Positions 2,088 to 54,385 of a stretch of 64,000 bases of DNA are shown here, piece by piece. Made by a program: the position numbers and the translations under genes. Origin of the DNA: a virus; IMG/VR virus record IMGVR_UViG_3300023174_000084, positions 1 through 64,000 of that record. One strand, 5' to 3'. Positions within the stretch are counted from its first letter, which is position 1; every line of letters begins with the position of its first letter. Under the pieces are notes generated by a model that worked only from the letters and a program-made list of their open reading frames with translations, was not told the DNA's origin and did not search any database.

Positions 2088-2377
2088 TTTACACTATCAA
2101 AAATTTGTTTCTGTTGTTTATGCCATAATTGCCACGCATTGTATCTGTCTTGTAATTCATAGTACAAACCGTAATTTTCATTAGCATTTTGTAATAAATC
2201 TGCTAATGTCTTTTTATTCTCATTTAGAGGCTTTAGAACCGGAGCGGGCTCCATTAGCACTTGAGGAGCTTCTGGAAACTTTTGGCTCAATGGCACGGTT
2301 GTAGAGCACCCAAGCATCATCAGACAGCTTGCACTCAGCATTAATAGCTTCCCTCTTTGCTTCAATGGCTTTAGCAT
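2084..2377 (-). CDS. Rz1-like: Outer-membrane spanin subunit (Rz1-like lipoprotein)
   Basis: A 97-residue lipoprotein with signal and lipobox MLGC (Cys24). After the cysteine comes a proline-rich stretch (PEAPQVLMEPAPVLKP), typical of Rz1-type o-spanins, and then a helical tail. The gene starts inside the 3' part of the inner-spanin gene, in another frame, with about 158 bases of shared sequence. That is the embedded arrangement known from Rz/Rz1 pairs. Together the two proteins should bridge the periplasm and fuse the inner and outer membranes after endolysin action. Confidence 0.75.
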   Translation of the reverse strand: MLKPLKQRGKLLMLSASCLMMLGCSTTVPLSQKFPEAPQVLMEPAPVLKPLNENKKTLADLLQNANENYGLYYELQDRYNAWQLWHKQQKQIFDSVK

Positions 2378-2714
2378 TTTTATTCACCTTCTCTTTAATC
2401 AACTCTTTATTCTTGCTAACTTCAGCTGCCAACTTTTCATTGGCCTTTACAGATTTAACTTCTGCTTCTTTTATCTTTGCTTGCATTTCGGCTATTCTAG
2501 CACGATACGACATTTCTGTGGCATATCCTCCTTCAAAGAATACACCAATTACTAATAACACTATACCTAACTGTCTGCCAACCAAAGCGTATGGTTGAAT
2601 TATAGGTATAAATCTAACAAGCGATCCTACAAATGTTAATAATAATCCAAGTATAACTAGACCATGTATTGCCCATTGTAAAATCCAATCAGGAATGAAT
2701 GACAAAAACCACAT
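2220..2714 (-). CDS. Rz-like: Inner-membrane spanin subunit (Rz-like)
   Basis: A 164-residue protein with two hydrophobic segments (about 12-35 and 46-62) followed by a long lysine/alanine/glutamate coiled coil (about 70-130) and a CKLSDDAWVLYNRA segment. That segment resembles the conserved C-terminal part of Rz-type i-spanins. Canonical Rz has a single N-terminal anchor, so the double membrane segment is unusual. The Rz1-like gene is embedded in its 3' third. The serine/glycine-rich C-terminal tail corresponds to the overlapping region, where two frames constrain the sequence. Confidence 0.7.
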   Translation of the reverse strand: MWFLSFIPDWILQWAIHGLVILGLLLTFVGSLVRFIPIIQPYALVGRQLGIVLLVIGVFFEGGYATEMSYRARIAEMQAKIKEAEVKSVKANEKLAAEVSKNKELIKEKVNKNAKAIEAKREAINAECKLSDDAWVLYNRAIEPKVSRSSSSANGARSGSKASK

Positions 2715-2715
2715 A

Positions 2716-3411
2716 TTAAGCCTTTGGAGATTTTCTCCTGATAGACATCATAACAGGACTTTTCTTTTTACGAGGTAAATAAACACCTGGTTCGCCACCT
2801 TTAGGTAGTCCACTACCAGCAATTGCACCACTACTTACAACATTGGTTGGACCGGCAGAACCACCCATAGCACCATCTTCTTTTAATGAATCAAAATGTG
2901 CTTGTGCTTCTCTTTTGGATTTAAACCTTTGAATCATACCTGTTGGTTCAGTAACTTTATACTCCACATGGTCGCTTGTTCGTCCTGATGGATTGTTTAT
3001 TTTCTCAATCTTTGGAGTTGTTTTTACTATTGGTTTAATATATTTTTTAAACCTATCTTTTAAATCTGTTTCTTCTGGTACACAATTAGGCACCATACGA
3101 TTGCCTTTTTTCTTCATACCTTTTGCTGTGTATCCTGCCCAACAAGCTTCATCAACTTCTTCTGTTTTTACATTGATTGGTGCACCACGGCGTTCTGGAT
3201 TTGGATCTTCTCTACGCTTTCTTTGAGCGGCACTAGCACGAGCTTCTTTACCAATTGCGTGAGCTTTGGCCTGAGGTAAACATTTTGGTTTACCTTCGCC
3301 TGGTTCTCTTGCACAGTCACCTTTGATATTACCTTTGGTGTCCATGCGAACCCATTTCTGCTTAAACCACTTGCGTAAATCTTCACCGAGATATTGTTTG
3401 AAGGTTTGCAT
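2716..3411 (-). CDS. Head-associated protein with CTS-like leader and basic repeat domain
   Basis: I choose the ATG at 3411, not an upstream one at 3423, because it overlaps the previous gene's stop as TAATG and yields the leader MQTFKQYLGE, which matches neighbouring leaders. The product is 231 residues. After the leader comes a basic, cysteine-containing module (KWVRMDTKGNIKG through REDPNPERRG), then CWAGYTAKGMKKKGNRMVPN, both of which I know as recurring segments in T4-like phages of aquatic hosts; the first resembles a DUF5872-type domain. The C-terminus is glycine/lysine rich. L8-x-E10 fits a gp21 cleavage site. It is probably a packaged internal head protein; function unknown. Confidence 0.65.
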   Translation of the reverse strand: MQTFKQYLGEDLRKWFKQKWVRMDTKGNIKGDCAREPGEGKPKCLPQAKAHAIGKEARASAAQRKRREDPNPERRGAPINVKTEEVDEACWAGYTAKGMKKKGNRMVPNCVPEETDLKDRFKKYIKPIVKTTPKIEKINNPSGRTSDHVEYKVTEPTGMIQRFKSKREAQAHFDSLKEDGAMGGSAGPTNVVSSGAIAGSGLPKGGEPGVYLPRKKKSPVMMSIRRKSPKA

Positions 3412-3731
3412 TAGCAATTCCACTTTCTTAGTGCTTTGTTGATACGGCTATCTGGATCATTCGCTGTCTTGGCAGATGTTAATCGTTTCTTCATTCCACC
3501 CATTCTGGCACAAAATGATTTTCTACGATTAGCTGCCTTAGAACCTGGTTTTAGTTTAGATGGCTTTGTTGTAACAGCCATGCTTAATTTAGAACCTGGA
3601 TTTTCTCTGCGATATGAAGCAATACCTTTACGATTCAATCCGCCTTCTGGATCTTTACCTGCGGCTCGTTGCCACGCAGGAGATTTTTCTTCTAAGTATT
3701 CTTCCGTTACGAATTGCTTGAAAGTTTTCAT
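3411..3731 (-). CDS. Small basic head-associated protein with CTS-like leader (DUF6321-like)
   Basis: A 106-residue protein that begins MKTFKQFVTE, nearly identical in pattern to the T4 internal-protein leader MKTYQEFIAE. The rest is strongly basic with conserved stretches (SPAWQRAAGKDPEGGLN, KRLTSAKTANDPDSRINKAL) that I recognise as a small family in T4-like phages and related elements, DUF6321-like as far as I recall. Such basic proteins could bind DNA in the head. Its start overlaps the upstream gene by four bases and its stop overlaps the next start. Confidence 0.7.
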   Translation of the reverse strand: MKTFKQFVTEEYLEEKSPAWQRAAGKDPEGGLNRKGIASYRRENPGSKLSMAVTTKPSKLKPGSKAANRRKSFCARMGGMKKRLTSAKTANDPDSRINKALRKWNC

Positions 3732-4114
3732 ATTTTCCTCAATATCTCTGCGACATTAACATCTATTGGTATCTCTACAACAGAAATGTTTTTACCTCTG
3801 ATACCGTAAACTATTTCTGGTACAATATTCAAATAAGACAAAAAAGTTTTCAATATATCATAATCTCGTTCATCTATCTTATAGAATAATATTCTTGCCG
3901 TTGCTTCAGGACCAAAAACATTGTTCAATAAAATAATGTGATTTAATATCAATCTCTCTTTAAGAGATTTTGTAATTTTGTATCTACGGAACAAACGCTT
4001 CAAATACTTTGTTCTTTTGATATCACTTTCAAATTCAGACATAATACAATGTGGTGCATTATAACATTTCATTGCATATATCAAAAAATTATCATCATTC
4101 AATTCATCAATCAT
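3728..4114 (-). CDS. Conserved T4-like phage protein of unknown function
   Basis: A 128-residue protein. The pattern YAMKCYNAPHC at the N-terminus, a basic YLKRLFRRYK segment and RLILNHIILLNNVFGPEATARILFYKI (read at about 52-80) matches a family that I know from many T4-like cyanophages, always without assigned function. It is helical with no catalytic motif. It overlaps both neighbours by one to four bases. It lies between two genes with CTS-like leaders but has no such leader itself. Confidence 0.7.
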   Translation of the reverse strand: MIDELNDDNFLIYAMKCYNAPHCIMSEFESDIKRTKYLKRLFRRYKITKSLKERLILNHIILLNNVFGPEATARILFYKIDERDYDILKTFLSYLNIVPEIVYGIRGKNISVVEIPIDVNVAEILRKI

Positions 4115-4578
4115 TATTCTTCTTCTATATCGTCATCCTCAGATTCTTCAATATGTTTTGCTAATTCTTCTGCGTCCATTATTTTTGCTTTTGTTTCATA
4201 ATGGCCATCATCTTGCAATTCATAACTATAATAGAAGAAATATTCTGTTTCATCTAAATTGTTTAATTTCTCCACTTTGCCACACAGTCCGGCACCAGAC
4301 TTGGCACCGAACTGATCCACGGCAATTATTTCTTCACCTTCTTCCATGTTGGTGAATGTTATTTTGGGAGGAGAAATCCCATACAGATTTAATACTTTTG
4401 TTACTCTGAACAAATCAGTATATGGGTTCACCGAATGTCCAGTTGATGCTAGTGCTAAGTTTCTATTCAATTCTTGACGTGCTTGAGCATCGTCTAAATT
4501 TATATTATTGACGATAACTGTCGCAGTGGGGAAACTAAAATCTCCCCACTCTTTCAAGTATTGTTGAAAAGATAACAT
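4114..4578 (-). CDS. Unknown protein with CTS-like leader and acidic tail
   Basis: A 154-residue protein that starts MLSFQQYLKE, with L8-x-E10 in the register of the T4 capsid targeting sequence. The middle section is mixed alpha/beta (FRVTKVLNLYGISPPKITF, then a short VDQFGAKSGAGLCG loop), and the C-terminus is very acidic (EESEDDDIEEE). No family is recognised. It directly follows the capsid decoration protein with a one-base overlap, consistent with a head-related role and possible packaging. Confidence 0.6.
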   Translation of the reverse strand: MLSFQQYLKEWGDFSFPTATVIVNNINLDDAQARQELNRNLALASTGHSVNPYTDLFRVTKVLNLYGISPPKITFTNMEEGEEIIAVDQFGAKSGAGLCGKVEKLNNLDETEYFFYYSYELQDDGHYETKAKIMDAEELAKHIEESEDDDIEEE

Positions 4579-5261
4579 TAGGTAACTGTGTTAATTACAG
4601 CGTTAGCACTATTAACAGCGGTAGCTTCTGTACCTGTTGCATTAACAACGCAACGCAATACATAGTTGTTAATTGTTCCGTTAGTAGGTGCTACTACCAA
4701 GTTAGCCGTTGTTCCGCCAGTATAAACTGCACCAGAAGGTGTACCATTTACAACGTTGACCCATACACCGCCGGTGTTGTTGTTAACTTGCCATTGATAT
4801 GTCAATGGAGCTGCTGTATTACCTTCGGTGATACTTGCTACTACACGGAATGTTGCGCCATTGGCACTAGTTATGTTAGCAGTATTTTGACTTGGTTGTG
4901 AAGTGATTGTAATAGTAGCGTCTGGATAGATTGGACTTGTATTGTCTGTGATAATGCCGGTAGCAATCAAAACTTCTTGTTGCACACGACCTGCACGTCC
5001 ACCAGAACCAACGGTGCGTAACACCCATCCGCTATGAGCTACTTGGTCATTAACATCAGCTTCAAAAGCATCAACGGCAAATAAACCAATAGTTTCATCA
5101 GTAGTATAAACATCTGCTGTTGTATTTTGGTATAATCTTGCTACGTTGGCTGCTGTTGGAGCAGAGTAATTAATTTTCACATTTTGTGCATTAACAATCG
5201 TTGAATTTACAGCCCAATATGGTGCGTTGGCTGCGTTATCGTTATTTCCCCATGATGGCAT
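4578..5261 (-). CDS. Virion surface protein with C-terminal Ig-like domain (Hoc-like)
   Basis: A 227-residue protein. The N-terminus (MPSWGNNDNAANAPYWAV) and the segment GWVLRTVGSGGRAGRVQQEVL at about 78-98 match a structural protein family common in T4-like cyanophages. Residues from about 115 form an Ig-like beta domain with the typical YQWQ core tryptophan and a YVLRCVV strand. Ig-like domains on phage heads, such as T4 Hoc, decorate the capsid and bind surfaces or glycans. A clear ribosome site (AAGGAG) and a CATAAATA late box lie upstream, so late expression is expected. Confidence 0.75.
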   Translation of the reverse strand: MPSWGNNDNAANAPYWAVNSTIVNAQNVKINYSAPTAANVARLYQNTTADVYTTDETIGLFAVDAFEADVNDQVAHSGWVLRTVGSGGRAGRVQQEVLIATGIITDNTSPIYPDATITITSQPSQNTANITSANGATFRVVASITEGNTAAPLTYQWQVNNNTGGVWVNVVNGTPSGAVYTGGTTANLVVAPTNGTINNYVLRCVVNATGTEATAVNSANAVINTVT

Positions 5262-5295
5262 TTTTTTCTCCTTATTAACCTCGGGTTATGTTGCT

Positions 5296-5303
5296 TATTT
5301 ATG
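5296..5303 (-). promoter_or_regulatory. T4-type late promoter box (CATAAATA)
   Basis: On the minus strand the box reads CATAAATA and is followed by AGCAAC, the same context as the TATAAATAAGCAAC box at 11173. It lies 35 bases before the Ig-domain gene. gp55 sigma factors recognise TATAAATA-like boxes near -10, and gp55 is encoded in this window. Confidence 0.55.
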
Positions 5304-5304
5304 T

Positions 5305-6501
5305 TTAATTATCGTTGTTCTTATTTGCTTTTCTCATTACAGGATCAATTTCCAAAGTATCTCTAGTTTGACCTGTCAAAGTTTTACCACCTTTTAAAAC
5401 CATAGCTGCTTGAGTATCTTCATCTCCATAGGCTTCTTGTTTTTCAACCTTTGGTTTCTTTCCATAAGTAGCTACCGATTTATCTTCTTTTTCATGGTCA
5501 TATATTTCTTCTTTGACCATTTTGTGTTTTTTATATAATGATTTAATGATACGAGCAGATTTAGACATTTCTTTTTGTTTAGAATATGTTGGTTCTCTAT
5601 CGTCTGCTTGATTGGCCATATCAAAAGGCATCTGTGTTGCTGCATAGGTATCTTGAAATACATCTTCTTTCATTTTCAATTCATCTTTTCTTTTACCAAA
5701 AGTCTTATGAACCAGAGTATCTAATTTTTTATGAAATAAAGTTTCTTTTGCTTTACTGATACCAGGATCCGCTGCTTCTTTATTAAGATGTTTCTCTAAA
5801 CGGTCAATAGCACCTTTTAAATCACCAGTTGGTTTTTCATACTGGCTGTGTTTCTTTTCTCTTTCTGCTGCAGCTTTACGAAACTTATCTAAAGCTGTCA
5901 TTTTTGGTTTCTTTGCTTCAGTCATTGCACCCATGGCACGAACTTTGTCCATAACTGCTTGGTGATCCAGAGCGCCACGAGAATCTCTCTCATCTTCTAA
6001 AGCACGCAAATGGTCTTTTGTAACATTCATACCATGACGGCGAATCAATTCTTTAGCAATTTCTTCGTGATTATCAAAACCTTCTTTATGTAAACCATTA
6101 TGTTTAAGAACTTTGGTCATATGTTTCTCTCTGTTTAGAGCATGTTGGCGTAATTCAACAGGAGTATGTTGTAATGTTTTACCTTCTTCAATTTCAACTT
6201 CTTCTCGTTGAGCTCTTTGCGCTTTCATTTTTTCTCTTGTAACAGATGAAACATAATCAGCTGGATCATCAAACATATGGTCACGCTTCCATTTTTGAAA
6301 CTCAGAAGATTTAGAATGTGATATTTTAGTATCTTTGCCTACGAATTCAGGATTAATACCACGAGACCTTAGATAAGCATGCAACATGCCGGCTTCACTC
6401 TCTGTGATACCTGCACGAACTGACCATGGTTCATTTGGGTCGGTGCCAAAGGTGGGTTTCTTTTCACCCTTAACAATTAATTTTAATTTCTTTGCGTCCA
6501 T
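5305..6501 (-). CDS. Charged modular head-associated protein (probable prohead polyprotein)
   Basis: A 398-residue, extremely charged, helical protein with no enzyme motif. It is built of short basic segments separated by acidic linkers such as EEVEIEEG (about 98-105) and MKEDVFQD (about 284-291), which fit the (L/I/V)-x-E rule for gp21 cleavage. An N-terminal WSVRAGITESEAGMLHAYLRSRG segment appears folded. It is followed closely upstream by a related larger modular protein. I infer that it is an internal head or core component processed during maturation; the sequence does not prove this. Confidence 0.6.
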   Translation of the reverse strand: MDAKKLKLIVKGEKKPTFGTDPNEPWSVRAGITESEAGMLHAYLRSRGINPEFVGKDTKISHSKSSEFQKWKRDHMFDDPADYVSSVTREKMKAQRAQREEVEIEEGKTLQHTPVELRQHALNREKHMTKVLKHNGLHKEGFDNHEEIAKELIRRHGMNVTKDHLRALEDERDSRGALDHQAVMDKVRAMGAMTEAKKPKMTALDKFRKAAAEREKKHSQYEKPTGDLKGAIDRLEKHLNKEAADPGISKAKETLFHKKLDTLVHKTFGKRKDELKMKEDVFQDTYAATQMPFDMANQADDREPTYSKQKEMSKSARIIKSLYKKHKMVKEEIYDHEKEDKSVATYGKKPKVEKQEAYGDEDTQAAMVLKGGKTLTGQTRDTLEIDPVMRKANKNNDN

Positions 6502-6510
6502 TATTTCACC

Positions 6511-8157
6511 TTAACCGTTATTTCCTGGTGCTTTACCTAACATCTCTGTTTTGATACGTTTCATTGCTTGACGAGCCAAATCTTTAGCACGGGACATTGG
6601 TGTATGCTTTGCACCAGATTTATCTGTTACTGTGCCACCAATTTTTTTGTAAGGTCCATCAAAAGGAGGTTGCTCAGCATTTGTTACAAAAGGAACTGTA
6701 TCCGATTCAGGATGTTTACCTTCTGTAACACCACGAGCTTTGGCCAAATTTTCTTTTGAAGAAATAGAATCTTTACTTCCAGCCTTTGCATCAGCAACTG
6801 TCAATGGTTTGTCACCACGAGCTTTGCGAATGAAAGCTGGAATGTCAGACTTTTTTACTTCTTCTTTCATTGGACCTCCACGAAATTTTACTTTTGTGGA
6901 TTTAGCATCAGAACCAGGACCAACATCATCTTTTTGTGCTGTTGGTTCTTGGCCTTTTAATGTGTCTTTGGTACGAACATTTGGATCGATTTCTTCTTCG
7001 ACTGTATCTTCTTTCATTGCCTGTTTTGTTGCTGTAGCATACATTACAGATTTAGCATCTTTTCCATAACGCTGTCTAAATCCAGCAAAGCCTTTTTTCA
7101 TAGACTTAACAATCTTCTCACGCTTGGCCATTTCAGCATCAGTCATTTCTTTTTCTTCTAATTCATACACTTCTAATAAAGCATCAATATCTTCATCAGA
7201 CCAATCTTCATCTTCTTTACGGAGCTTAGCAAGAATAGCACCAGCGACACGCTTACCTGCTTCAGCAGAACCATAACGCTCACCAGCTTTCTTTGCAATC
7301 ATACCAAATGCTTTACCTGGTTTACCAATATCTTTTCCAGCACGAGCCGCTTTAGCTGAATAACCAGCTTTTTCATCCAGTTCTTCAACTTCTTCTTTTA
7401 CTGATTTCCAACCACCACCCATTGCTTTGTATTTCTTTGAAGCCCAACCATTTGCGTAAGCAGATGGATATACTGCAAATTTAGATTTAGCAGCTGCTTT
7501 TGCTTTAGCCCATTTCTCTGGACTTGTTGGTACATTCTTCTCATCAATTTGTTCTACATCTTCTTTGTGCATCTTTTCTACATGTTTAGAAACTTCACCA
7601 TCTTTGCCATGCATTTTCTTTTCGTGCTTTTTTACTTCAGCTTCACAAGAAGCTTCATCTAATTCAACTTCTTCTTTCTGTTGGGCACGGAGAATTGCAA
7701 AGTCTTGAGAATCAATTTTGTTATTTTTATTCTTATCAATCTTGTGTTGTTTACCTTTTAAGGCTTCAAGTAATTTATTCTTAAATTCCATTTCTTCATC
7801 GTAACGACCACGAGTTTTCTTCTCATCTTCTACATCTTTTTTAATCAAGTCTTTTGTCTTTGGACCTTTTAATGTGTCAACAACATGTTTTTCTGGTTTA
7901 GAACCACCGTATGCTTTGGTGGAACGATGAACTAAACCTGTTTTGGTACGAGTAACTTCGCCAGACATAGCTTCATCAACAGTATCTTCTTTAACTGGTT
8001 TCTTACCAGCACGGAGAGATGCTAAATCACCGCCATCAATCTCATCTTTTGGATGTTCAATTTTGGCAATTTCTTTTTGCTTAGCTGACAGTTCTTTTTC
8101 TGTAATTTCTTTTATAGCTTCAGCAATTGAATCCATTTTTAACTTGTTGACAAACAT
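6511..8157 (-). CDS. Modular polyprotein with repeated KEE-type linkers and an EF-hand loop
   Basis: A 548-residue, lysine/glutamate-rich protein. The start at 8157 is supported by AGGAG eight bases upstream. Small modules are separated by acidic linkers: KEDTVDEA (56-63), KEEVELDEA (161-169), KEDVEQIDEK (198-207), KEEVEELDEK (254-263), KEDTVEEEID (382-391), KEEVKK (431-436). A dockerin/EF-hand-like loop spans D141-D152 (DKNKNNKIDSQD). Modules such as SPEKWAKAKAAAKSKF and RYGKDAKSVMYATATKQAM recur, as I recall, in hypothetical proteins of T4-like cyanophages. The linkers resemble prohead protease sites, so it may be matured into several peptides inside the head. Confidence 0.65.
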   Translation of the reverse strand: MFVNKLKMDSIAEAIKEITEKELSAKQKEIAKIEHPKDEIDGGDLASLRAGKKPVKEDTVDEAMSGEVTRTKTGLVHRSTKAYGGSKPEKHVVDTLKGPKTKDLIKKDVEDEKKTRGRYDEEMEFKNKLLEALKGKQHKIDKNKNNKIDSQDFAILRAQQKEEVELDEASCEAEVKKHEKKMHGKDGEVSKHVEKMHKEDVEQIDEKNVPTSPEKWAKAKAAAKSKFAVYPSAYANGWASKKYKAMGGGWKSVKEEVEELDEKAGYSAKAARAGKDIGKPGKAFGMIAKKAGERYGSAEAGKRVAGAILAKLRKEDEDWSDEDIDALLEVYELEEKEMTDAEMAKREKIVKSMKKGFAGFRQRYGKDAKSVMYATATKQAMKEDTVEEEIDPNVRTKDTLKGQEPTAQKDDVGPGSDAKSTKVKFRGGPMKEEVKKSDIPAFIRKARGDKPLTVADAKAGSKDSISSKENLAKARGVTEGKHPESDTVPFVTNAEQPPFDGPYKKIGGTVTDKSGAKHTPMSRAKDLARQAMKRIKTEMLGKAPGNNG

Positions 8158-8158
8158 T

Positions 8159-9955
8159 TTATTTCTCCTGTTTCTTCTTTTTAATTTTTACTTGTGTACC
8201 AATATTTCTGTCCGCATCTTTATAGGATTGCATGGGTTCAAAATTAGTAGACCCATTACGAACACCGCCTACACCCATATCAGATATAGAAATGTCGTTT
8301 TGAAAGCCGTTATATTCTTTAATTGTTTTTCTAAAACTATTAAATTCTTTTTGTTCTCTGTATGTTACATCGCCTAGACCGGACATGGGATATACTGTTC
8401 CCTGCTGGCGTGTATCAAATTCTGGACCGATGCCCGTTGTGTTTCTTAATCTTTGACTAACAGTCGGTGCATCGGTAAATCGTTTTTTATTCTTTACTTT
8501 TTCTTTGTCTTTGGAGAAGTTGGCTTCTTTTGGGACTGGTTTGATTTCGAGCGTTGGGCCTTTGGCTTCGCTATAGGTGCGGAAGGTGTAGGTTTTTGTT
8601 CGCTTACCGGCGTTGTAACGGAGGTCGTCTGCTTGGGGCTCGTTTCCTCGGTTGTCGGCGGGCAAACTATCGAGGCCACCTGCTCGGAGTTCTGGATTGG
8701 TTTTAATTTTAGTAAATTTATTAATGCTTTGAACATTTTTTTCTTCCTTAATTTTATTATCACCTATATTTAATTTACCATGCTTTTCTAACCACGATAA
8801 AGAAATGTCACCATAGGTTCGGTTTTCAATAAATTCATTGATATTTAGGTAAGTTTGAGTTATATCTTCCTCAATACTTTCCAATGAACCAGTATTGTCA
8901 ATCTGTTTAAATTTTCTAAAAGATTCTGCAAAAAATTCTTTATTTTTCTGAGCTTGCAACCACTTATCATAACGAATAGATTCGACCATCATACGAGATA
9001 ATTTGGTATTTCTTTCTTGGCTAACCTCATTGGTGGTATTGACGAATACCATCATAGTTCTATAACCAAGTTCTTCTAGTTCTTCTTTAATGTGATTAAT
9101 TTTATCGATATTGTCTGCTGGTCCATTGATAATTAATGGACCACGGTTACGAATGGCTTCTCTACGGAAGTCATTGGTTTTTTCAGATAGTTTCTGTTTG
9201 TCGGCAAGATAATCAAAAGCCTGTGTGGCATTAAGTTCTACAGCACGAGCCTCTGGTATAGCTTCACGGATAATGATATCTTTACCAGAACCAGGTCCAC
9301 CGGTCACAAAGATTGCTTTGAATAGACCACGGTTGATGTTCTCATGCAATCCCATACCTTTGCGTGTATCGTGATATAGTTCTTTGGCATGGTGGTCGGC
9401 AACGTGCTCTGGTACACCTTTTTTAAACTCTTTGTAATTACCTGAGGCTGCGTGTTGGCGCATTTTGGTACCAGACATACCTTCGGAACCTTCAGCATCT
9501 GGATCACGATGGCCAGCAGAATGAATAGTAATTTTTTTGAAATCGTAATGGCCGTGTTTACCTTTTACACCATTGTATTTGTTTAATGAATCTTTAAATT
9601 CTTTAACACGGTCAGAACCAACCACAACATGAAGGTGAGTTACACCTTTCTTATGCAATTCGGATGCATGGTGAAAAATAGATGGATGTTCTTTGGAAGA
9701 TGTTTTGAAATTTGTACCTGGTGCATATCGTTTCAGGTGTTTTACTTTTTGTTCACCAGATAGAGGATTCTTTTTGGAATCTTGTGAATGTGAAACCACC
9801 ACAGTATGTTCTGCGTTATGTTTATCTGCAACTTCTTTTACTTTATGAATAAGTTTTAAGTGGCCAGTTGTAGGAGGATTCATGCGACCAAAGGTCATTA
9901 CATGGTGTTTCTCACCTTGTTTGGTTTCTTCAACTAATTCTAAAAATGATTTCAT
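8159..9955 (-). CDS. Bifunctional nucleotidyltransferase (NMNAT/cytidylyltransferase-like) plus P-loop kinase with CTS-like leader
   Basis: A 598-residue protein in three parts. Residues 1-10 (MKSFLELVEE) form a CTS-like leader. Residues 18-200 are an HxGH-class nucleotidyltransferase: GRMNPPTTGH at 23-32 supplies the nucleotide-binding motif and MSGTKMR at 160-166 is the ISSTxxR-type motif. A P-loop kinase-like domain follows, with Walker A GGPGSGK at 219-225. This order resembles NadR (NMN adenylyltransferase plus ribosylnicotinamide kinase), but the substrate cannot be read from sequence. The last 200 residues are low-complexity and basic. Its start overlaps the ligase-like gene stop (ATGA). 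A packaged, injected enzyme is the inference. Confidence 0.7.
   Translation of the reverse strand: MKSFLELVEETKQGEKHHVMTFGRMNPPTTGHLKLIHKVKEVADKHNAEHTVVVSHSQDSKKNPLSGEQKVKHLKRYAPGTNFKTSSKEHPSIFHHASELHKKGVTHLHVVVGSDRVKEFKDSLNKYNGVKGKHGHYDFKKITIHSAGHRDPDAEGSEGMSGTKMRQHAASGNYKEFKKGVPEHVADHHAKELYHDTRKGMGLHENINRGLFKAIFVTGGPGSGKDIIIREAIPEARAVELNATQAFDYLADKQKLSEKTNDFRREAIRNRGPLIINGPADNIDKINHIKEELEELGYRTMMVFVNTTNEVSQERNTKLSRMMVESIRYDKWLQAQKNKEFFAESFRKFKQIDNTGSLESIEEDITQTYLNINEFIENRTYGDISLSWLEKHGKLNIGDNKIKEEKNVQSINKFTKIKTNPELRAGGLDSLPADNRGNEPQADDLRYNAGKRTKTYTFRTYSEAKGPTLEIKPVPKEANFSKDKEKVKNKKRFTDAPTVSQRLRNTTGIGPEFDTRQQGTVYPMSGLGDVTYREQKEFNSFRKTIKEYNGFQNDISISDMGVGGVRNGSTNFEPMQSYKDADRNIGTQVKIKKKKQEK
8494..8736 (-). 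CDS. Possible overlapping gene, lysine/proline/threonine-rich 80-residue protein
   Basis: In a second minus-strand frame inside the C-terminal tail of the nucleotidyltransferase gene, an ORF begins MFKALINLLKLKP and continues as a P/T/S/K-rich tail ending in PKTKKK. A strong ribosome site (AAGGAAG) lies seven bases before the ATG. The host gene is low-complexity here and the local base composition is clearly more GC-rich than its surroundings, as expected where two frames constrain the sequence. No family is recognised. The alternative is a chance open frame in a repetitive tail. Confidence 0.4.
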   Translation of the reverse strand: MFKALINLLKLKPIQNSEQVASIVCPPTTEETSPKQTTSVTTPVSEQKPTPSAPIAKPKAQRSKSNQSQKKPTSPKTKKK

Positions 9956-11127
9956 TTTCTAACTTTAAGTAAATTGGCTTTTGCGAATTCTGCTCTATTA
10001 ACTAATTTTGTTGGTTCACCTGCATGATGAACCACAAATCCTTCTGGTTTAGACTTCTTATTATCTATATGATGTTCCAGGCCACCTTCGTGTTGATTTA
10101 ATGTATCAACTAATACATTCTTAGCCTGTTGTAGGTGATGATGCATCTTCAATAGGTTGTTATAGTGTTCTTCATTACCTTGAATATGACTAGTATGTGT
10201 TTTTAACTCTGTCATTTTACGGGACTGAGCAGCAGGCGTTTTTAATTTACCAGCAGCTTTTTTGTAAATATCAGTAATGTGTTTTTGTAAACCTTTAGCT
10301 GTTGGTTTCTCATCTGTGCGAACAGTTTTATTGATATATGTGGACAATGCACCAGTTTCACCGCTATGAGGATGAGTTGCACGATACATTGTATCACCAT
10401 GTTTATCGTGAATTGCCTGAGCTGCTTCAATGTGTTTTTTATATTGTTCTTGTGCTTTTTCGGTATAATTTACTTTGCTTGTGTCATGTTCAGCAGACTT
10501 GTGCCACACATCTTCGTGTTGTTTAAAGTTATGAACGTCCGGATGTGGATCAGCTTTCATATCGGTAATATTTTTACCATGATACTGTGTATGTACCACA
10601 ACACCAACCTTAGCCTTTTTAATCCTATCTGCCTGTTCACCTTTGGCAGTATACCGAATGGTATTTGGAGTAAACGAAACACCACTTTTGGTTTCTTTCT
10701 TATCATCATGACCAAACATGATGTCACCTTGATACACTCCTTTCTTCGGAGCAACTTTTTTAAGGTGTAGGGCGTCTTTTAGTTTTGAAACCAATCCTGG
10801 TGCGTGTCCGTGATTCTTCTCAATATCTTTTTCTGTATAGTTAATCTTTGGATTCTTATTAAATGCGGACTTACTAGCAACAAAAAACTTGCCCGTTTCT
10901 GGATGATGTCCAAATACTACTGCCGGAGAACCATCATATTTCATGGTAAGATTGGAACTGTGGCCACCAGATTTAATTTGGTTGTGTGCAGAATTCAACG
11001 CATCTCTGGCGTGTTCAAAACCTTTTGCTCCATGAAAGAGTGGGCGATCCTCAGCATGATGAATATGCTTGAGTTTGCCATCAACTTCCTGAGTTTCCTC
11101 TTTCAGAAACGATAAAAAAGACCGCAT
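9952..11127 (-). CDS. RNA/DNA-ligase-like nucleotidyltransferase with CTS-like leader (DUF6267-like)
   Basis: A 391-residue protein. After the leader MRSFLSFLKE come hallmarks of covalent nucleotidyltransferases: motif I KYDGSP (K63 as the expected adenylated lysine, D65, G66), a motif III-like YQGDIMFG around 132-139, motif IV EGFVV at 362-366 and a motif V-like TKLVN with K374. The spacing and wording resemble T4 RNA ligase 1 (KEDGS and EGYV motifs). Ligation or capping activity is an inference. The family is, to my memory, listed only as a DUF6267-type hypothetical. A TATAAATA late box lies 46 bases upstream, and it is cotranscribed with the nucleotidyltransferase-kinase. Confidence 0.65.
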   Translation of the reverse strand: MRSFLSFLKEETQEVDGKLKHIHHAEDRPLFHGAKGFEHARDALNSAHNQIKSGGHSSNLTMKYDGSPAVVFGHHPETGKFFVASKSAFNKNPKINYTEKDIEKNHGHAPGLVSKLKDALHLKKVAPKKGVYQGDIMFGHDDKKETKSGVSFTPNTIRYTAKGEQADRIKKAKVGVVVHTQYHGKNITDMKADPHPDVHNFKQHEDVWHKSAEHDTSKVNYTEKAQEQYKKHIEAAQAIHDKHGDTMYRATHPHSGETGALSTYINKTVRTDEKPTAKGLQKHITDIYKKAAGKLKTPAAQSRKMTELKTHTSHIQGNEEHYNNLLKMHHHLQQAKNVLVDTLNQHEGGLEHHIDNKKSKPEGFVVHHAGEPTKLVNRAEFAKANLLKVRK

Positions 11128-11172: not shown

Positions 11173-11180
11173 TATTTATA
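11173..11180 (-). promoter_or_regulatory. T4-type late promoter box (TATAAATA)
   Basis: A perfect minus-strand TATAAATA, followed by AGCAAC, lies in the 137-base gap before the ligase-like gene. This is the consensus late box of T4-like phages and implies that the head-protein block downstream is transcribed late. The rest of the gap shows nothing else clear. Confidence 0.75.
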
Positions 11181-29015: not shown

Positions 29016-29720
29016 ATGAACGAACTAATTTATGTTTTACTGACAACTCATCTAACAATCATCGCCGTAACTCTATATCTACATCGTAGCCAAACTCATC
29101 AAGGTGTTACATTTCATCCAGTAGTAAATAATTTTTTTCGTTTTTGGTTATGGTTAACCACAGGTATGGTTACAAAACAATGGGTAGCCATTCATCGTAA
29201 ACACCATGGTATGACCGACCAAAAAGGTGACCCACATTCACCTCAATTATTTGGTATCTGGAAAGTTTTATTTGGTGGTGCACTATTATATAATACAGCC
29301 AGTAAAGATACTCTAATGGTTAATGCGTTTGGTAGAGGAACACCAGATGATTGGATGGAAAAAAATGTATATAGCAAACACAGTAGATTAGGAATTACTT
29401 TGTTATTACTAATTAATTTACTTTGTTTTTCTTGGTGGGGTTTACTGATTTGGGGTATTCAAATGTTGTGGATACCTTTGTTAGCTGCAGGTGTAATCAA
29501 TGGAATTGGTCACTATTGGGGGTATAGAAATATCGAAACAAGAGAATCATCTAGAAATATTTTCCCTATTGGTCTTATTATTGGTGGCGAAGAGCTTCAC
29601 AATAATCACCATGCTGATGCTGGTTCTGCCAAGCTTAGTAGGAAGTGGTTTGAATTAGATATTGGTTGGTTCTATATTAAATTTTTAGAGAAACTTAAAC
29701 TAGCAACACTCAAGCATTAA
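29016..29720 (+). CDS. Fatty acid desaturase (acyl-CoA/acyl-lipid delta-9 type)
   Basis: A 234-residue membrane di-iron desaturase. The three histidine boxes are H23RSQTH28, H60RKHH64 and H195NNHH199, and a further histidine lies in NGIGHYWG (about 162-169). Hydrophobic segments alternate with these boxes in the usual way. It introduces a double bond into fatty acids and would alter host membrane fluidity, which needs host electron donors (ferredoxin or cytochrome b5-type). The length is short compared with bacterial enzymes (about 300) but no box is missing. An auxiliary metabolic gene of the phage. Confidence 0.9.
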   Translation: MNELIYVLLTTHLTIIAVTLYLHRSQTHQGVTFHPVVNNFFRFWLWLTTGMVTKQWVAIHRKHHGMTDQKGDPHSPQLFGIWKVLFGGALLYNTASKDTLMVNAFGRGTPDDWMEKNVYSKHSRLGITLLLLINLLCFSWWGLLIWGIQMLWIPLLAAGVINGIGHYWGYRNIETRESSRNIFPIGLIIGGEELHNNHHADAGSAKLSRKWFELDIGWFYIKFLEKLKLATLKH

Positions 29721-30033
29721 AAGAAGAACCACAACCACAGGTAGATTTGGCGTTTGGATTACTGATAACGAATTGTGAATTAAATTTTTCTTCTTTATAA
29801 TCCAATGTTGCACCTTGTAGGTACTGAGAAGATATTACATCAACTACTATTTTGATTCCTTCATTCTCAATTACAAAATCATCTTCAGCAATTTCTTCCT
29901 CAAAAGTAAAACCATATTGATAACCAGAACAACCACCACCTTGAACAAACATTCTCAAAGCTCCATTCGGTAGTTTTTCTTCTACCAGTAAATCACGAAC
30001 CTTGTTAATTGCACTTGCAGTTATTGTTATCAT
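29710..30033 (-). CDS. iscA-like: A-type iron-sulfur carrier (IscA/ErpA-like)
   Basis: A 107-residue HesB-family protein with the three ligand cysteines C35, C99 and C101 (GGGCSG and STCGCGSSF). This family carries Fe-S clusters from the scaffold to target proteins. It follows IscU with a 29-base overlap, and converges with the desaturase, overlapping its 3' end by eleven bases. Together with IscU it forms a minimal Fe-S assembly pair; cysteine desulfurase (IscS) and HscAB are not in this window, so host partners would be needed. Confidence 0.92.
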   Translation of the reverse strand: MITITASAINKVRDLLVEEKLPNGALRMFVQGGGCSGYQYGFTFEEEIAEDDFVIENEGIKIVVDVISSQYLQGATLDYKEEKFNSQFVISNPNAKSTCGCGSSFNA

Positions 30034-30403
30034 GTTTTCCTTTGTAATCGTTTATTGCAGCCTTAATAGCGTCTTCCGCAAGGATTGAACAATGAATCTT
30101 AACTGGCGGGAGTGAGAGTTCTTCTGCAATTTGAGTGTTCTTAATTGATGCAGCCTCGTCCAATGTTTTACCTTTGACCCATTCCGTGACAAGCGAACTA
30201 CTTGCAATGGCTGAACCACAGCCGTATGTTTTGAATTTTGCATCTCTAATAATTCCATCTTCTACTCGTATTTGTAGTTTCATAACATCACCACATGCTG
30301 GTGCACCAACCATACCGGTACCAACATTAACATCACCTGAATCTAATTTTCCTACATTGCGAGGATTTTCATAGTGGTCTATAACTTTATCTGAATATGC
30401 CAT
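30005..30403 (-). CDS. iscU-like: Iron-sulfur cluster scaffold (IscU-like)
   Basis: A 132-residue scaffold of normal length (about 128 in E. coli). The ligands C37, D39, C62 and C105 with H104 are all present. The HscA recognition motif LPPVK (98-102) is intact, which suggests that it works with host HscA/HscB. The C-terminal tail has extra cysteines (NNNCKCN), which is unusual and may be a chance addition. It overlaps IscA downstream and follows the 53-residue protein upstream. Confidence 0.93.
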   Translation of the reverse strand: MAYSDKVIDHYENPRNVGKLDSGDVNVGTGMVGAPACGDVMKLQIRVEDGIIRDAKFKTYGCGSAIASSSLVTEWVKGKTLDEAASIKNTQIAEELSLPPVKIHCSILAEDAIKAAINDYKGKHDNNNCKCN

Positions 30404-30878: not shown

Positions 30879-31115
30879 TTAGTAAATCCAGACTACTTCT
30901 GTAATAGGTACGACATAAGTTTCGTTTTCAATTTTTACAGCTTTGTTCCAATTAACTAATACTGTATCACCAACATTGACCTCGTCAACTTTATTACCAA
31001 TGGCAATGACTTCTGCTTTATCAGGTTCATCGGCTGATTTAAGAATAATGCCAGAATGAGTAGCCTTTTCAGCTGCAACACGAATTACAATAATATTATC
31101 TCTAGTTGGTTTCAT
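30879..31115 (-). CDS. groES-like: GroES-like co-chaperonin (cpn10)
   Basis: A 78-residue protein with the cpn10 core: MKPTRDNIIVIRV at the start, a mobile-loop-like SGIILKSADEPDKAEVIAIG (about 21-40) and VGDTVLVNW (about 48-56). It is shorter than bacterial GroES (about 95 residues). T4 makes gp31 as its own GroES to help GroEL fold the capsid protein, so this could serve gp23 folding here. Ribosome site AAAGGT precedes the ATG. The gene follows tRNA-Thr by 16 bases. Confidence 0.75.
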   Translation of the reverse strand: MKPTRDNIIVIRVAAEKATHSGIILKSADEPDKAEVIAIGNKVDEVNVGDTVLVNWNKAVKIENETYVVPITEVVWIY

Positions 31116-51140: not shown

Positions 51141-52478
51141 TTACATCAAGTTCTTGACGCCAAAAATACGATAGTATTTGTTGGTACGAGCATTCAAACC
51201 ACCCAAGCCAGCGCCGAGACCTTCTGCGAATGGGTTGGATACCATTCCATAACGTGTCTTGAAGCCAATCTTTGGTTGGAATGTGAACTGGTCTACAGCA
51301 CGAACCATCTGTAATGGAACGTATGGGCAATAGAACAGACCAGCATCGTATGGGCTAGAACCTTTGTAACCGATTGTTACGAGTTCTTGGTTGCTTGTGT
51401 AACCACCGAAGTATGGGTCAATGTAGACCTTGATACGACCATGGAGTAAGCCAGCAAATGTGTTGCCTGTGTCATCTACTTGCAAGTCAGCTTGGAGAGC
51501 AGGAGTATATTGCAATACACCAGCCATTGCCATAGCGGAAGCAACGTCAGAAGAAACGATCAACACATTACCTTTACCACGGCGGGTTTGCTTAGCGATA
51601 ACGTTAGCATCACGCTCGATTTGGAAAATCAAGCCTTTGAAACGCTCAACAGACCAACGACCGTTGGAGTCTGTGTCGAGGTCAAAGAAACCAGCAGTTG
51701 TTGTACCATACTGAGCACCTGGAACGGCAACAGTATAGATGGTACGGATAACTTCACGGTTGATTTCAGCGAGAACTTCTGTAGACAGAATGTTAGACAA
51801 TTCTGTTTCAGCATCAAGACCATGAATTGCTTTCAAGTCTTGTGCAAGTTCTAAAGAATACTCAGCTTTCAAAGCACGGCTTTGAGCAGTTACAGTTACC
51901 TTCTCGATAGAGAAAGCCATCTGAGCAAATGCTGTATTGCCATCGGAACCGAGGAATTCAGCAGTAGCTGTTGGCATTGCAATACCAGTTGTATAGCTGT
52001 TAGCAGCCAAAGATGCAGAAACAACAGGGTTTGTACCTGTGTCAGTTGCAGTTGTACCACGGAAACCGTATGGGTTGTTAGCAGAACCAACACCGGAGAA
52101 CATTGTGTTCGCCTCGTTGAAGAATGCCTCGTCACCACCTTGGTTAACATACTTGGCACGCATTGCAAAAATCAAACCGGTAGGACCAGTCATTGGCTGA
52201 ACGCCAGCAACGTCATAAGCGATAAGATTTGGCAATGCACGGCGTACCAACGAAATCAAGATTGGGTCAAAGTTTTGAACACCACCAGTGATGTTTGTTG
52301 GGCCAGCAGACTGCTCGTTAAGAGCTTGCATTTGAGCAGCATCTTGACGCATTGCTTGTTGTTGGTTTTCCAAAACAAGAGCTGTAACAGCTTTCTTGTA
52401 TGGGTCTTTAATGGCGTCTAATTCTGGATGCTCCAGAACAGGTTGCCATTTCTTTTGTAGTTCTTCTGTCAAATACAT
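51141..52478 (-). CDS. gp23: Major capsid protein gp23
   Basis: A 445-residue HK97-fold capsid protein of T4 type. Conserved blocks are FDPILISLVRRALPNLIAYD (about 70-89), QPMTGPTGLIFAMRAKY and the C-terminal GYKGSSPYDAGLFYCPYVPL (about 368-387). The first 55 residues are charged and helical, with a gp21 site candidate at LNE55, where cleavage would expose QSAGPTN. The shell needs chaperones in T4, and a GroES-like protein is encoded here. A good ribosome site AAGGAAC precedes it. Confidence 0.96.
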   Translation of the reverse strand: MYLTEELQKKWQPVLEHPELDAIKDPYKKAVTALVLENQQQAMRQDAAQMQALNEQSAGPTNITGGVQNFDPILISLVRRALPNLIAYDVAGVQPMTGPTGLIFAMRAKYVNQGGDEAFFNEANTMFSGVGSANNPYGFRGTTATDTGTNPVVSASLAANSYTTGIAMPTATAEFLGSDGNTAFAQMAFSIEKVTVTAQSRALKAEYSLELAQDLKAIHGLDAETELSNILSTEVLAEINREVIRTIYTVAVPGAQYGTTTAGFFDLDTDSNGRWSVERFKGLIFQIERDANVIAKQTRRGKGNVLIVSSDVASAMAMAGVLQYTPALQADLQVDDTGNTFAGLLHGRIKVYIDPYFGGYTSNQELVTIGYKGSSPYDAGLFYCPYVPLQMVRAVDQFTFQPKIGFKTRYGMVSNPFAEGLGAGLGGLNARTNKYYRIFGVKNLM

Positions 52479-52512: not shown

Positions 52513-53703
52513 TTACTTAACCAATGTTTGTGAAATGGTTTTTGCGTAGATACTGATAGAAGGATCTTCGGAAACGATTTTATCTTTCTTCTCTTCCTCA
52601 ACCAATACTTCGTCTAAAGCAGATGAATCAGCAACTTTAACATCAGCCTTGAAATATGATTCTTTCAATGTTGATAGTTTGGTAGCAAATTCTTCATCAG
52701 TAGTAAACTCCACACCTTCTGCGAGTGATTTCAGTTTTTCTACTTGAGTCTGCGTAAGGCCTTCACAAGCTGCGTAAATAGCCTCAAACTTTTTGTGCTC
52801 ATTGAGTTCTTTTTTCATCTCAATAGCAGATTGAATTTGTTGATTGTAAGCTTCTTCGAGTTCTTCTACTTTAGCGGTGAGTTCTTCAACAACATCCACT
52901 TTCTCAGCAGGAATATCGATGTAATGCTCTTCAAACAAATCTTTCAAACCGGTAATAAAATCTTCAACGATTTCGGCACGGAGACCTTTTTCGATAGCGA
53001 TTTCATTGTCTTTGACCCATTCTTCAACCATGTAGTTGAGATAGTCATCAACCTTAGCTGCCAAATCTTCTTTGATTTCTTCAACAGCAGCTTCAAATTG
53101 TTCTGTTAATTCAGCTTCAGCTTCAGCAATAACTTCTTCGGCACGAGCAAGAACGGCAGCTTCAAAAATAGTAGAAGCTTTTTGAACAAATTCCTCAGAG
53201 AGATTTTCGCCTGTAAACAGAGCGTCCATATCTTCTTTCATTTTTTCTTTCATCTTCATTTTTTTCATCATTGCTTTGTCTTGAGCTTCATCTTCATGAC
53301 CTTCTTCTTTTTCAGCTTCAGCAATAACTTCTTCTTCAGCTTCTGTTTCTTCGTAAGTCTGAACACCAACTGAACCTTTGTTTAAAGGCATTTGGTTTTT
53401 ACCAGTCTTACCTTCTGGTTGTTCAACAGAACCTTGCTCAGCAGGTTGACCTTTGAGTTTCTTTGCTGGCTCAGAACCAACAGGTGGTTTTGCACCTGGA
53501 GGAGTTGCTGTTGGTACGCCTTTAGTAGCGTCTGGACCAGCATCGGTTGTTTTAGTAACTTCTGTGCCAATGTCGCCCACTTCTTGTGTACCGTAAGCTA
53601 CATCGCCAGATAATTTGGCTGGTTTATCTTGGCCACTTTGTTTACCAGAAACATTACCCGAAAGAATGTCTTTAGCGGCTTCGGACAGATTAAATTTTCC
53701 CAT
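52513..53703 (-). CDS. gp22: Prohead core scaffold protein gp22-like
   Basis: A 396-residue, very acidic, helical protein in the position of gp22. It has a glycine/proline-rich N-terminal region (about 20-110) and long coiled coils afterwards (ELTEQFEAAVEEIKEDLAAK). The C-terminus is SISIYAKTISQTLVK. It should form the scaffold core and be cleaved by gp21; several L-x-E-type sites are present. Longer than T4 gp22 (269) because of the N-terminal extension. A TATAAATA late box is 29 bases upstream. Confidence 0.85.
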   Translation of the reverse strand: MGKFNLSEAAKDILSGNVSGKQSGQDKPAKLSGDVAYGTQEVGDIGTEVTKTTDAGPDATKGVPTATPPGAKPPVGSEPAKKLKGQPAEQGSVEQPEGKTGKNQMPLNKGSVGVQTYEETEAEEEVIAEAEKEEGHEDEAQDKAMMKKMKMKEKMKEDMDALFTGENLSEEFVQKASTIFEAAVLARAEEVIAEAEAELTEQFEAAVEEIKEDLAAKVDDYLNYMVEEWVKDNEIAIEKGLRAEIVEDFITGLKDLFEEHYIDIPAEKVDVVEELTAKVEELEEAYNQQIQSAIEMKKELNEHKKFEAIYAACEGLTQTQVEKLKSLAEGVEFTTDEEFATKLSTLKESYFKADVKVADSSALDEVLVEEEKKDKIVSEDPSISIYAKTISQTLVK

Positions 53704-53740: not shown

Positions 53741-54385
53741 TTAAAGTTTTTTTACGAGTGATTCCCAAATGCGTAGACTTACTTCTTCAATTTCTCTTTG
53801 AGAAGCCTTTTTAATTGCTTGTTTGGCTTCAGAGTATTGCTGTTCAGTCCATACACCATTGACCATCACCCATTCTTTGCCTTCCATAATACCTTGAACG
53901 AAAGCATTTGGAGCAGAAGGGTCTGCTACAATATCCGCCGCTGTGGCTAGATGAAAATCATCTTGAACTACATTGACACCATTGACAGATTTGAGAGAAC
54001 CCATACCACGAGATGATACTCCAATCTGAGCACCACCTTCGATAAGGCTCTTAACAATCTGACCCATAGGTGTGTCAAGAATCTTTGCTTTGCCTATCCA
54101 ATCATTTCCCTCTTGACGAAGGCTCACAACCATGTGGGAAACTCTGTCAAGATTGATTGATGGGGTGTCTGGATGACCCAGCTCACCAAAGGCACGATTT
54201 TTATTGATATATTGTTCTGTGTATCTTTCTACTTCTTTGGCCATGGTCTCTTTGAGATATTTACGGCCATTACGGTTTACCACTTCTGCTTGGAGAAATG
54301 GACCCTCAATGTAAAGATTACGCTTGCCGTCTTTATCTTCAGCAAGATATTGTAGTGTTTCGGTGACTTCTGTTATTAACTTCAT
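53741..54385 (-). CDS. gp21: Prohead protease gp21
   Basis: A 214-residue serine protease (herpes-type fold, family S78-like). The catalytic histidine is H71 in GELGHPDTP and the serine is in IGVSSRGMGS (S124 or S125). It matures the head by cleaving scaffold, capsid and internal proteins at (L/I)-x-E sites. This enzyme is the expected processor of the CTS-like leaders described in findings. Length matches T4 gp21 (212). Confidence 0.94.
   Translation of the reverse strand: MKLITEVTETLQYLAEDKDGKRNLYIEGPFLQAEVVNRNGRKYLKETMAKEVERYTEQYINKNRAFGELGHPDTPSINLDRVSHMVVSLRQEGNDWIGKAKILDTPMGQIVKSLIEGGAQIGVSSRGMGSLKSVNGVNVVQDDFHLATAADIVADPSAPNAFVQGIMEGKEWVMVNGVWTEQQYSEAKQAIKKASQREIEEVSLRIWESLVKKL

Follow-up and report, generated by a model that had tools for sequence, protein, structure and literature searches.

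The window analysed here comprises bases 1-64000 of the IMG/VR virus record IMGVR_UViG_3300023174_000084 (115,580 bp), and our subject is a block of genes at 2.7-11.1 kb in which five products begin with a ten-residue leader resembling that of the phage T4 internal proteins. The virus belongs to the T4-like phages, and its major capsid protein shares 65% identity with the counterparts in Methylophilales phage Melnitz and Pelagibacter phage Mosig. All five genes lie on the minus strand. They encode a DUF6267 protein of 391 residues (9952..11127; PF19782, E 1.8e-95) with the leader MRSFLSFLKE (codons 11098-11127); a 598-residue protein combining a cytidylyltransferase-like domain with a P-loop kinase (8159..9955; Pfam CTP_transf_like 2.1e-7, Zeta_toxin 2.3e-5), with the leader MKSFLELVEE (codons 9926-9955); a 154-residue protein called as an open reading frame (ORF; 4114..4578), with MLSFQQYLKE (codons 4549-4578); a DUF6321 protein of 106 residues (3411..3731; PF19846, E 3.3e-19), with MKTFKQFVTE (codons 3702-3731); and a basic protein of 231 residues (2716..3411), with MQTFKQYLGE (codons 3382-3411). 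The last of these genes has an alternative GTG start 12 nucleotides upstream; its ATG overlaps the stop codon of the preceding gene, which matches the other junctions of the block. The five starts (11127, 9955, 4578, 3731 and 3411) and their sequences agree with those given by an earlier sequence-only reading of the window.

Position 4 of the leader is phenylalanine in all five proteins and position 7 is tyrosine, phenylalanine or leucine. The fixed positions (4, 7, 8 and 10) are those mapped in T4 IPIII, where the ten N-terminal residues are enough to have the protein packaged; there, positions 4 and 7 act in targeting and positions 8 and 10 in processing by gp21, which cleaves after L/I-x-E (PMC9026906). 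The earlier statement that T4 internal proteins start with MKTYQEFIAE holds for IPII and IPIII, both of which are matched by the pattern described below, and fails for IPI, whose longer leader starts MKTFKEFTSTTTPVSTITE. The same reading placed a gp21 gene in this virus, and a prohead core protease of family S77 is encoded at 53741..54385 on the minus strand (PF03420, E 2.4e-38), with GELxHP and GVSSRG blocks in common with T4 gp21.

To express the leader as a pattern, M..[FYLIMW]..[FYLIMW][LIVMF].E was applied at all 2,026 ATG, GTG and TTG starts of ORFs of at least 50 residues in the whole record. Matches were confined to the five genes and one spurious ORF (40286-40537, plus strand) lying antisense to another gene. 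From the rate of the motif inside proteins, 0.15 matches are expected among the 130 called genes against the five observed (P(>=5) ~5e-7), and shuffling residues 2-20 at every N-terminus gave at most three matches in all 20,000 trials. The pattern was derived from these five sequences, which leaves room for the view that five N-termini happen to fit a loose pattern written after viewing them. This view is refuted by the genome-wide expectation, by the outcome of the unchanged pattern in phage S-CREM2 and by the conservation of the leader in relatives (both described below), and we give it next to no credence.

Relatives of the leader genes were collected from 232 IMG/VR loci. The leader was present in 157 of 158 related DUF6267 proteins, the lone exception being a truncated gene. 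Across 78 distinct N-termini of this family F4 and E10 are fixed, position 7 is F or Y, position 8 is L or I, and positions 2, 5, 6 and 9 vary. The codons at the fixed positions vary synonymously, with at least seven codons in use at position 8, indicating that selection acts on the peptide. Among the cytidylyltransferases 94 of 124 fit strictly, and most of the others retain F4 and E10 with an altered position 7 or 8 or with a shorter register. Some DUF6321 relatives retain F4/F7 but have their L-x-E shifted slightly downstream (MRTFKEFKEYLEE), in which they resemble T4 IPI. In Melnitz two adjoining genes begin with MQGFKTFLSE and MINFSKYITE, the second encoding a DUF6267 protein. The 4114..4578 product had no Pfam or PHROG match and no relatives by peptide-pattern search; by eye, however, it resembles a family of ~153 residues that surfaced in the relatives' loci and looks homologous, 20 of whose 27 members have the leader. 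The 3411..3731 product is related to the C-termini of S-SCSM1_29 (62%) and S-CREM2_137 (46%), and the 2716..3411 product is 38% identical to S-CREM2_160 and 39% identical to S-SCSM1_29 over ~70-115 residues. No gene start matched in podovirus P-SSP7, in pelagiphage HTVC010P or in the examined parts of Mosig, HTVC008M and S-CBWM1, and the nucleotidyltransferase homologue of jumbo phage 121Q is without the leader. A S-adenosylmethionine (SAM) methyltransferase family starting MKSLVDIMVE, encountered among the relatives' loci, is probably a chance fit and was set aside.

The sequence-only reading had proposed searching for the ten-residue profile at protein starts across T4-like genomes; here the pattern was compared with virion proteomes published for individual phages. 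The pattern was applied unchanged to S-CREM2 (OR473000), for which the virion proteome is available with coordinates (PMC10665884). It matched six annotated gene starts: ORF6 (SAM hydrolase, MKDFDSFLEE), ORF13 (MKDLHSFLTE), ORF14 (kinase, MKRFDAFLTE), ORF136 (MQTFSMFFSE) and ORF154 (cytidylyltransferase, MKNFSSFLTE), which are in the virion proteome, and gp175 (55 residues), which is not. Five of six corresponds to p = 0.003 over all genes and to 0.0002 when 24 classical structural genes are removed; other pattern matches in this genome are internal or antisense. In S-SCSM1 the pattern found ORF91, a virion protein, and ORF30, and in S-SM1 it marks the cytidylyltransferase found in the virion by Sullivan et al. 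Pooled over the three phages, 7/9 leader genes encode virion proteins (p = 4e-4, with an approximate gene count for S-SM1). Separately, in the virion-detected and Cas9-annotated S-CREM2 ORF12 (7704-10313, minus strand) a leader-like stretch, LRFASFMAEA, lies not at the start but near residues 17-26.

The orthologue of the 8159..9955 product is a leader-bearing virion protein in four phages. This cytidylyltransferase was detected in virions of the T4-like cyanophages S-CREM2, S-SCSM1, S-SM1 and S-SZBM1 (PMC3037559, PMC9602691, PMC10665884, PMC9146016), where the enzymes begin MKNFSSFLTE, MKSFLQFLKE, MKKFSAFLNE and MRFRQFIIE, the last in a register shorter by one residue, a variant allowed for beforehand. 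It is the sole enzyme of the S-SZBM1 virion; the leaderless DUF6267 neighbour in that phage is absent from the text and tables of the virion paper, unlike the leadered enzyme. The passages of the four papers make no mention of a leader and leave open whether the proteins are packaged or contaminants. Taken together, the match to the positions mapped in IPIII, the result in S-CREM2 and the four leader-bearing virion orthologues give good support to the prohead targeting that the earlier reading had proposed.

The breadth of the leader was assessed by scanning IMG/VR DNA for a stricter form, M-K-x-F-K-x-F-hydrophobic-x-E, which occurred in at least 120 stretches. Among the matches listed, 106 of 123 have an upstream stop no more than 20 codons away. 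The Pfam domains found were adenylate kinase, HD_4, ADP-ribosyltransferase, glucosaminidase, HicA, Zeta_toxin/AAA_33, Nudix, lysozyme, cytidylyltransferase and DUF6267. When clustered on their mature parts only, the proteins headed by this stricter leader number at least 107 and fall into at least 63 families with unrelated bodies. The same pattern with isoleucine replacing methionine gave 80 stretches in the entire collection, despite the three codons for isoleucine. One 14-kb contig, IMG/VR 3300025288_000189, has three leader-bearing genes, two of them adjacent, and is the same kind of cluster. These data bear on the idea that duplication spread the leader as a short N-terminal piece, or that it persists as a translation-start or expression signal, with no role in targeting. 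The five genes being neighbours in one block is compatible with such an origin, as is the ease with which short amphipathic N-termini arise. However, the conservation operates on amino acids while codons change, the bodies behind the leader are unrelated, the internal rate of the motif is low, and the S-CREM2 leader genes are dispersed (3.8, 10, 107 and 124 kb) with a virion location in common; we therefore regard this idea as very improbable.

Several observations weigh against packaging and processing of the five proteins. DUF6267 proteins of cyanophages are often without the leader. The virion-detected relatives of the 2716..3411 and 3411..3731 products (S-SCSM1_29, S-CREM2_137 and S-CREM2_160) have no N-terminal leader, indicating that the leader was a good predictor in the tested cases and yet is not necessary. 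S-SCSM1 ORF30 bears a leader and is not labelled a virion protein. Caesium chloride preparations can carry co-purified proteins, as the S-CREM2 authors point out (PMC10665884). An S77 protease was found on 13/50 leader-bearing contigs and 18/44 control contigs and thus did not separate the two, a comparison that is uninformative because most contigs are fragments and the control includes T4-like contigs. Finally, position 8 is V and not L/I in the 3411..3731 and 8159..9955 products. In S-CBWM1, described as not T4-like, an NMNAT reported from the virion is without the leader and no gene start fits in the 50 kb examined; this protein would represent another route or contamination.

The residue at position 8 bears on the claim of the sequence-only reading that all five proteins are trimmed after E10. 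A strict L-x-E ends at E10 in three of them (2716..3411, 4114..4578 and 9952..11127, with L at position 8), and trimming there is less certain for the two V-x-E leaders because they lack a strict L/I-x-E at this place; the 3411..3731 product has L-x-E at E15, and the 8159..9955 product has a strict L-x-E at E9. It is conceivable that the leaders dock proteins on the prohead core or head shell and are left uncut, or are cut in some of the proteins only, the proteins being structural parts that are not injected. This would accommodate both the two leaders and the many relatives that retain F4 and position 7 while altering position 8 (MKSFLELYEE, MKSFLELSEE), and T4 mutants with Asp at residue 10 are targeted and unprocessed (PMC9026906). 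On the other hand, the DUF6267 proteins all have E10 and nearly all cytidylyltransferases have it too, variants often gain a new L-x-E just downstream in the manner of T4 IPI, and enzymatic domains are unlikely as parts of a shell. We judge docking without injection to be unlikely. Additional gp21 sites were also considered as a general mark of cargo and rejected, as the DUF6267 protein has none beyond the leader and the cytidylyltransferase has 15 in all. On the whole of this evidence, the five leaders are probably T4-type capsid targeting sequences, with packaging as the best explanation, and the overall interpretation of the sequence-only reading (targeting into the prohead, trimming and ejection into the next host) is partly supported.

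Two of the cargoes had been described as enzyme-like, which is strongly supported for the 8159..9955 product. It contains an HxGH-type nucleotidyltransferase domain (PPTTGH and MSGTKMR motifs) and a P-loop kinase domain, and its fold matches ATP sulfurylase (2e-7), NaMN adenylyltransferases (2e-4), and polynucleotide and adenylate kinases. There is a weak PHROG match to NMNAT (4.5e-4), and the motifs, being those of a superfamily, do not single out NMN as the substrate; this nucleotidyltransferase-kinase is possibly engaged in making nicotinamide adenine dinucleotide (NAD) or in nucleic-acid repair. The Walker A segment of its kinase, residues 219-226, reads GGPGSGKD, with K225 and D226 invariant where S/T is usual. 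For the DUF6267 protein the enzyme assignment comes from motifs, with weak support from fold. Nucleotidyltransferase/ligase-like motifs occur in order (K63YDG, QGD135, EG363 and K374xV), and K63, D65, G66, G134, D135, E362, G363, K374 and V376 are invariant in 35 sequences. In an AlphaFold 2 (AF2) model with a predicted local distance difference test (pLDDT) score of 87 the leader is unfolded, and the best PDB fold matches, which are weak (E 0.14, probability <0.35), were the fungal tRNA ligase Trl1 and RNA ligases. A PDB sequence search with both enzymes gave no informative matches. One PHROG family joins DUF6267 and the nucleotidyltransferase-kinase.

The remaining genes of the block lie between the leader genes. 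An Ig-like head protein is encoded at 4578..5261 (minus strand; phrog_613 'head protein', E 1.9e-11) and is weakly related to the virion protein S-SCSM1_95. A DUF7207 protein without the leader is encoded at 3728..4114 (minus strand; PF23837, E 1.2e-36); its relatives S-SCSM1_96 and S-CREM2_159 were not among the proteins detected in virions. Two further ORFs without the leader specify proteins of 398 residues (5305..6501, minus strand), whose place fits the S-SM1/S-SCSM1 block order, and of 548 residues (6511..8157, minus strand), with weak similarity to the virion protein S-SCSM1_92. Both products are long, acidic and repetitive, the second having EEVELDE/EEVEELDE repeats. This 548-residue protein has 16 [LIV]xE sites against 8.1 expected (p = 0.0025), and it may be a core protein or a precursor cut many times by gp21. 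The block order of DUF6267, cytidylyltransferase, large acidic protein, small head protein and DUF7207 recurs in S-SM1, S-SCSM1, S-SZBM1 and P-RSM1, where DUF6267 is usually without the leader.

Adjacent genes of the block overlap by one to four bases, and the arrangement is thus consistent with an operon. The late promoter reported ahead of it was located: the late-promoter-like TATAAATA occupies 11173..11180 on the minus strand, 53 nucleotides upstream of the first leader gene. A scan for [TAC]ATAAATA also gave a variant at 5296..5303 (minus strand), preceding the head-protein gene that starts at 5261 and the leader genes that start at 4578, 3731 and 3411. The window contains nine such sequences, all on the minus strand and, judged by position, mostly or always upstream of late-type genes, suggesting that the block would be expressed late. 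The description of these products as head-region proteins did not stand: the block lies ~40 kb from gp20-gp23, ruling out a location in the head operon, though the PHROG 613 head protein sits inside it. The head/tail module (gp23, gp22, gp21, portal, gp19, gp18 and gp17) is at 51.1-62.1 kb on the minus strand. Within it a gp22-type scaffold, assigned by gene order, is encoded at 52513..53703 (minus strand) and is rich in [LIV]xE (22 sites against 12.3 expected, p = 0.002), and gp23, the major capsid protein compared with that of Melnitz above, is encoded at 51141..52478 (minus strand) and is likely cleaved at residue 55 (ALNE/QSAG).

The leader block is flanked by a glycosyltransferase-rich island and lysis-type genes. 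Overlapping frames at 2084-2377 and 2220-2714 (minus strand) resemble nested spanin genes, the inner frame being lipoprotein-like, and near them are a GH19-like endolysin (295-921) and a thermonuclease-like protein (1653-2087). Elsewhere in the window, by-eye judgement of the sequences identified adjoining IscA/ErpA-like and IscU-like iron-sulfur assembly proteins (29710-30033 and 30005-30403, minus strand), with GroES-like (30879-31115) and desaturase-like (29016-29720, plus strand) genes nearby.

The system is most similar to the T4 internal proteins IPI, IPII and IPIII (Mullaney and Black; PMC9026906, PMC3012670), with which it shares a ten-residue N-terminal leader with the same key positions, a gp21 gene, late-promoter sequences, and unrelated bodies behind a common leader. 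It differs in that two cargoes are enzyme-like and large (391 and 598 residues), and in a consensus nearer MKSFxxFLxE than MKTYQEFIAE; here the proteins are known from sequence. The T4 ADP-ribosyltransferase Alt is likewise an enzyme in the head, cleaved by gp21 and injected in T4, but has a 7-residue propeptide (PMC9026906), another chemistry and no known homology. The cytidylyltransferase/NMNAT of T4-like cyanophage virions (T4-GC190; S-SCSM1 ORF91, S-CREM2 ORF154, S-SZBM1_140) is the leader-bearing orthologue of the 8159..9955 product, whereas the second domain here is a P-loop kinase with a Walker-type GPGSGKD. Compared by their description in the literature, the ejection proteins of the giant phages SPN3US and phiKZ, which have S77-like prohead proteases, are also cleaved head proteins travelling with the DNA (PMC9026906), but they have long propeptides and another cargo set rather than a short F4/F7 leader. 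That relatives of T4 employ leaders of this type for diverse cargo has already been suggested in print (PMC9026906); for the present phages, full-text searches of open-licence papers did not turn up any earlier description of the leader. What is new is a further set of members of the T4 capsid-targeting kind, with enzyme cargo.

If the leaders act as T4-type targeting sequences, residues 4 and 7 would bind the prohead core during head assembly and so incorporate each protein in it. Cleavage by gp21 after L/I/V-x-E (at E10 in most, possibly at E9 in the cytidylyltransferase) would then release the mature protein inside the DNA-filled head, and the mature protein would leave with the DNA into the next cell. 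Cleavage in this phage is suggested by analogy and ejection into the host by T4 precedent alone. Pre-made enzymes could act before phage gene expression, for example against NAD- or RNA-damaging defences. We lean, with reservations, towards a wider proposal, in which aquatic T4-like phages use the leader generally as an exchangeable address tag, and many injected proteins that have so far gone unrecognised carry it, including RelA/SpoT-type HD, HicA-like, nucleotidyltransferase, kinase, ligase-like and cell-wall enzymes, with the adjacent DUF6267 protein and nucleotidyltransferase-kinase forming a pre-loaded NAD/nucleic-acid-repair kit for the first minutes of infection. Such a tag would explain the enzymes turning up in cyanophage virions.

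Studies of cyanophage particles have time and again detected enzymes such as cytidylyltransferases, kinases and SAM hydrolases, and their authors were unable to separate cargo from contamination. With a leader that predicts virion enzymes from sequence, the question becomes a rule that can be tested. It would also serve as a cheap screen for injected host-takeover or counter-defence proteins in environmental T4-like phages, mostly annotated as hypothetical. The wider leader pattern deserves a systematic test, and could become a general finder of virus-injected proteins.

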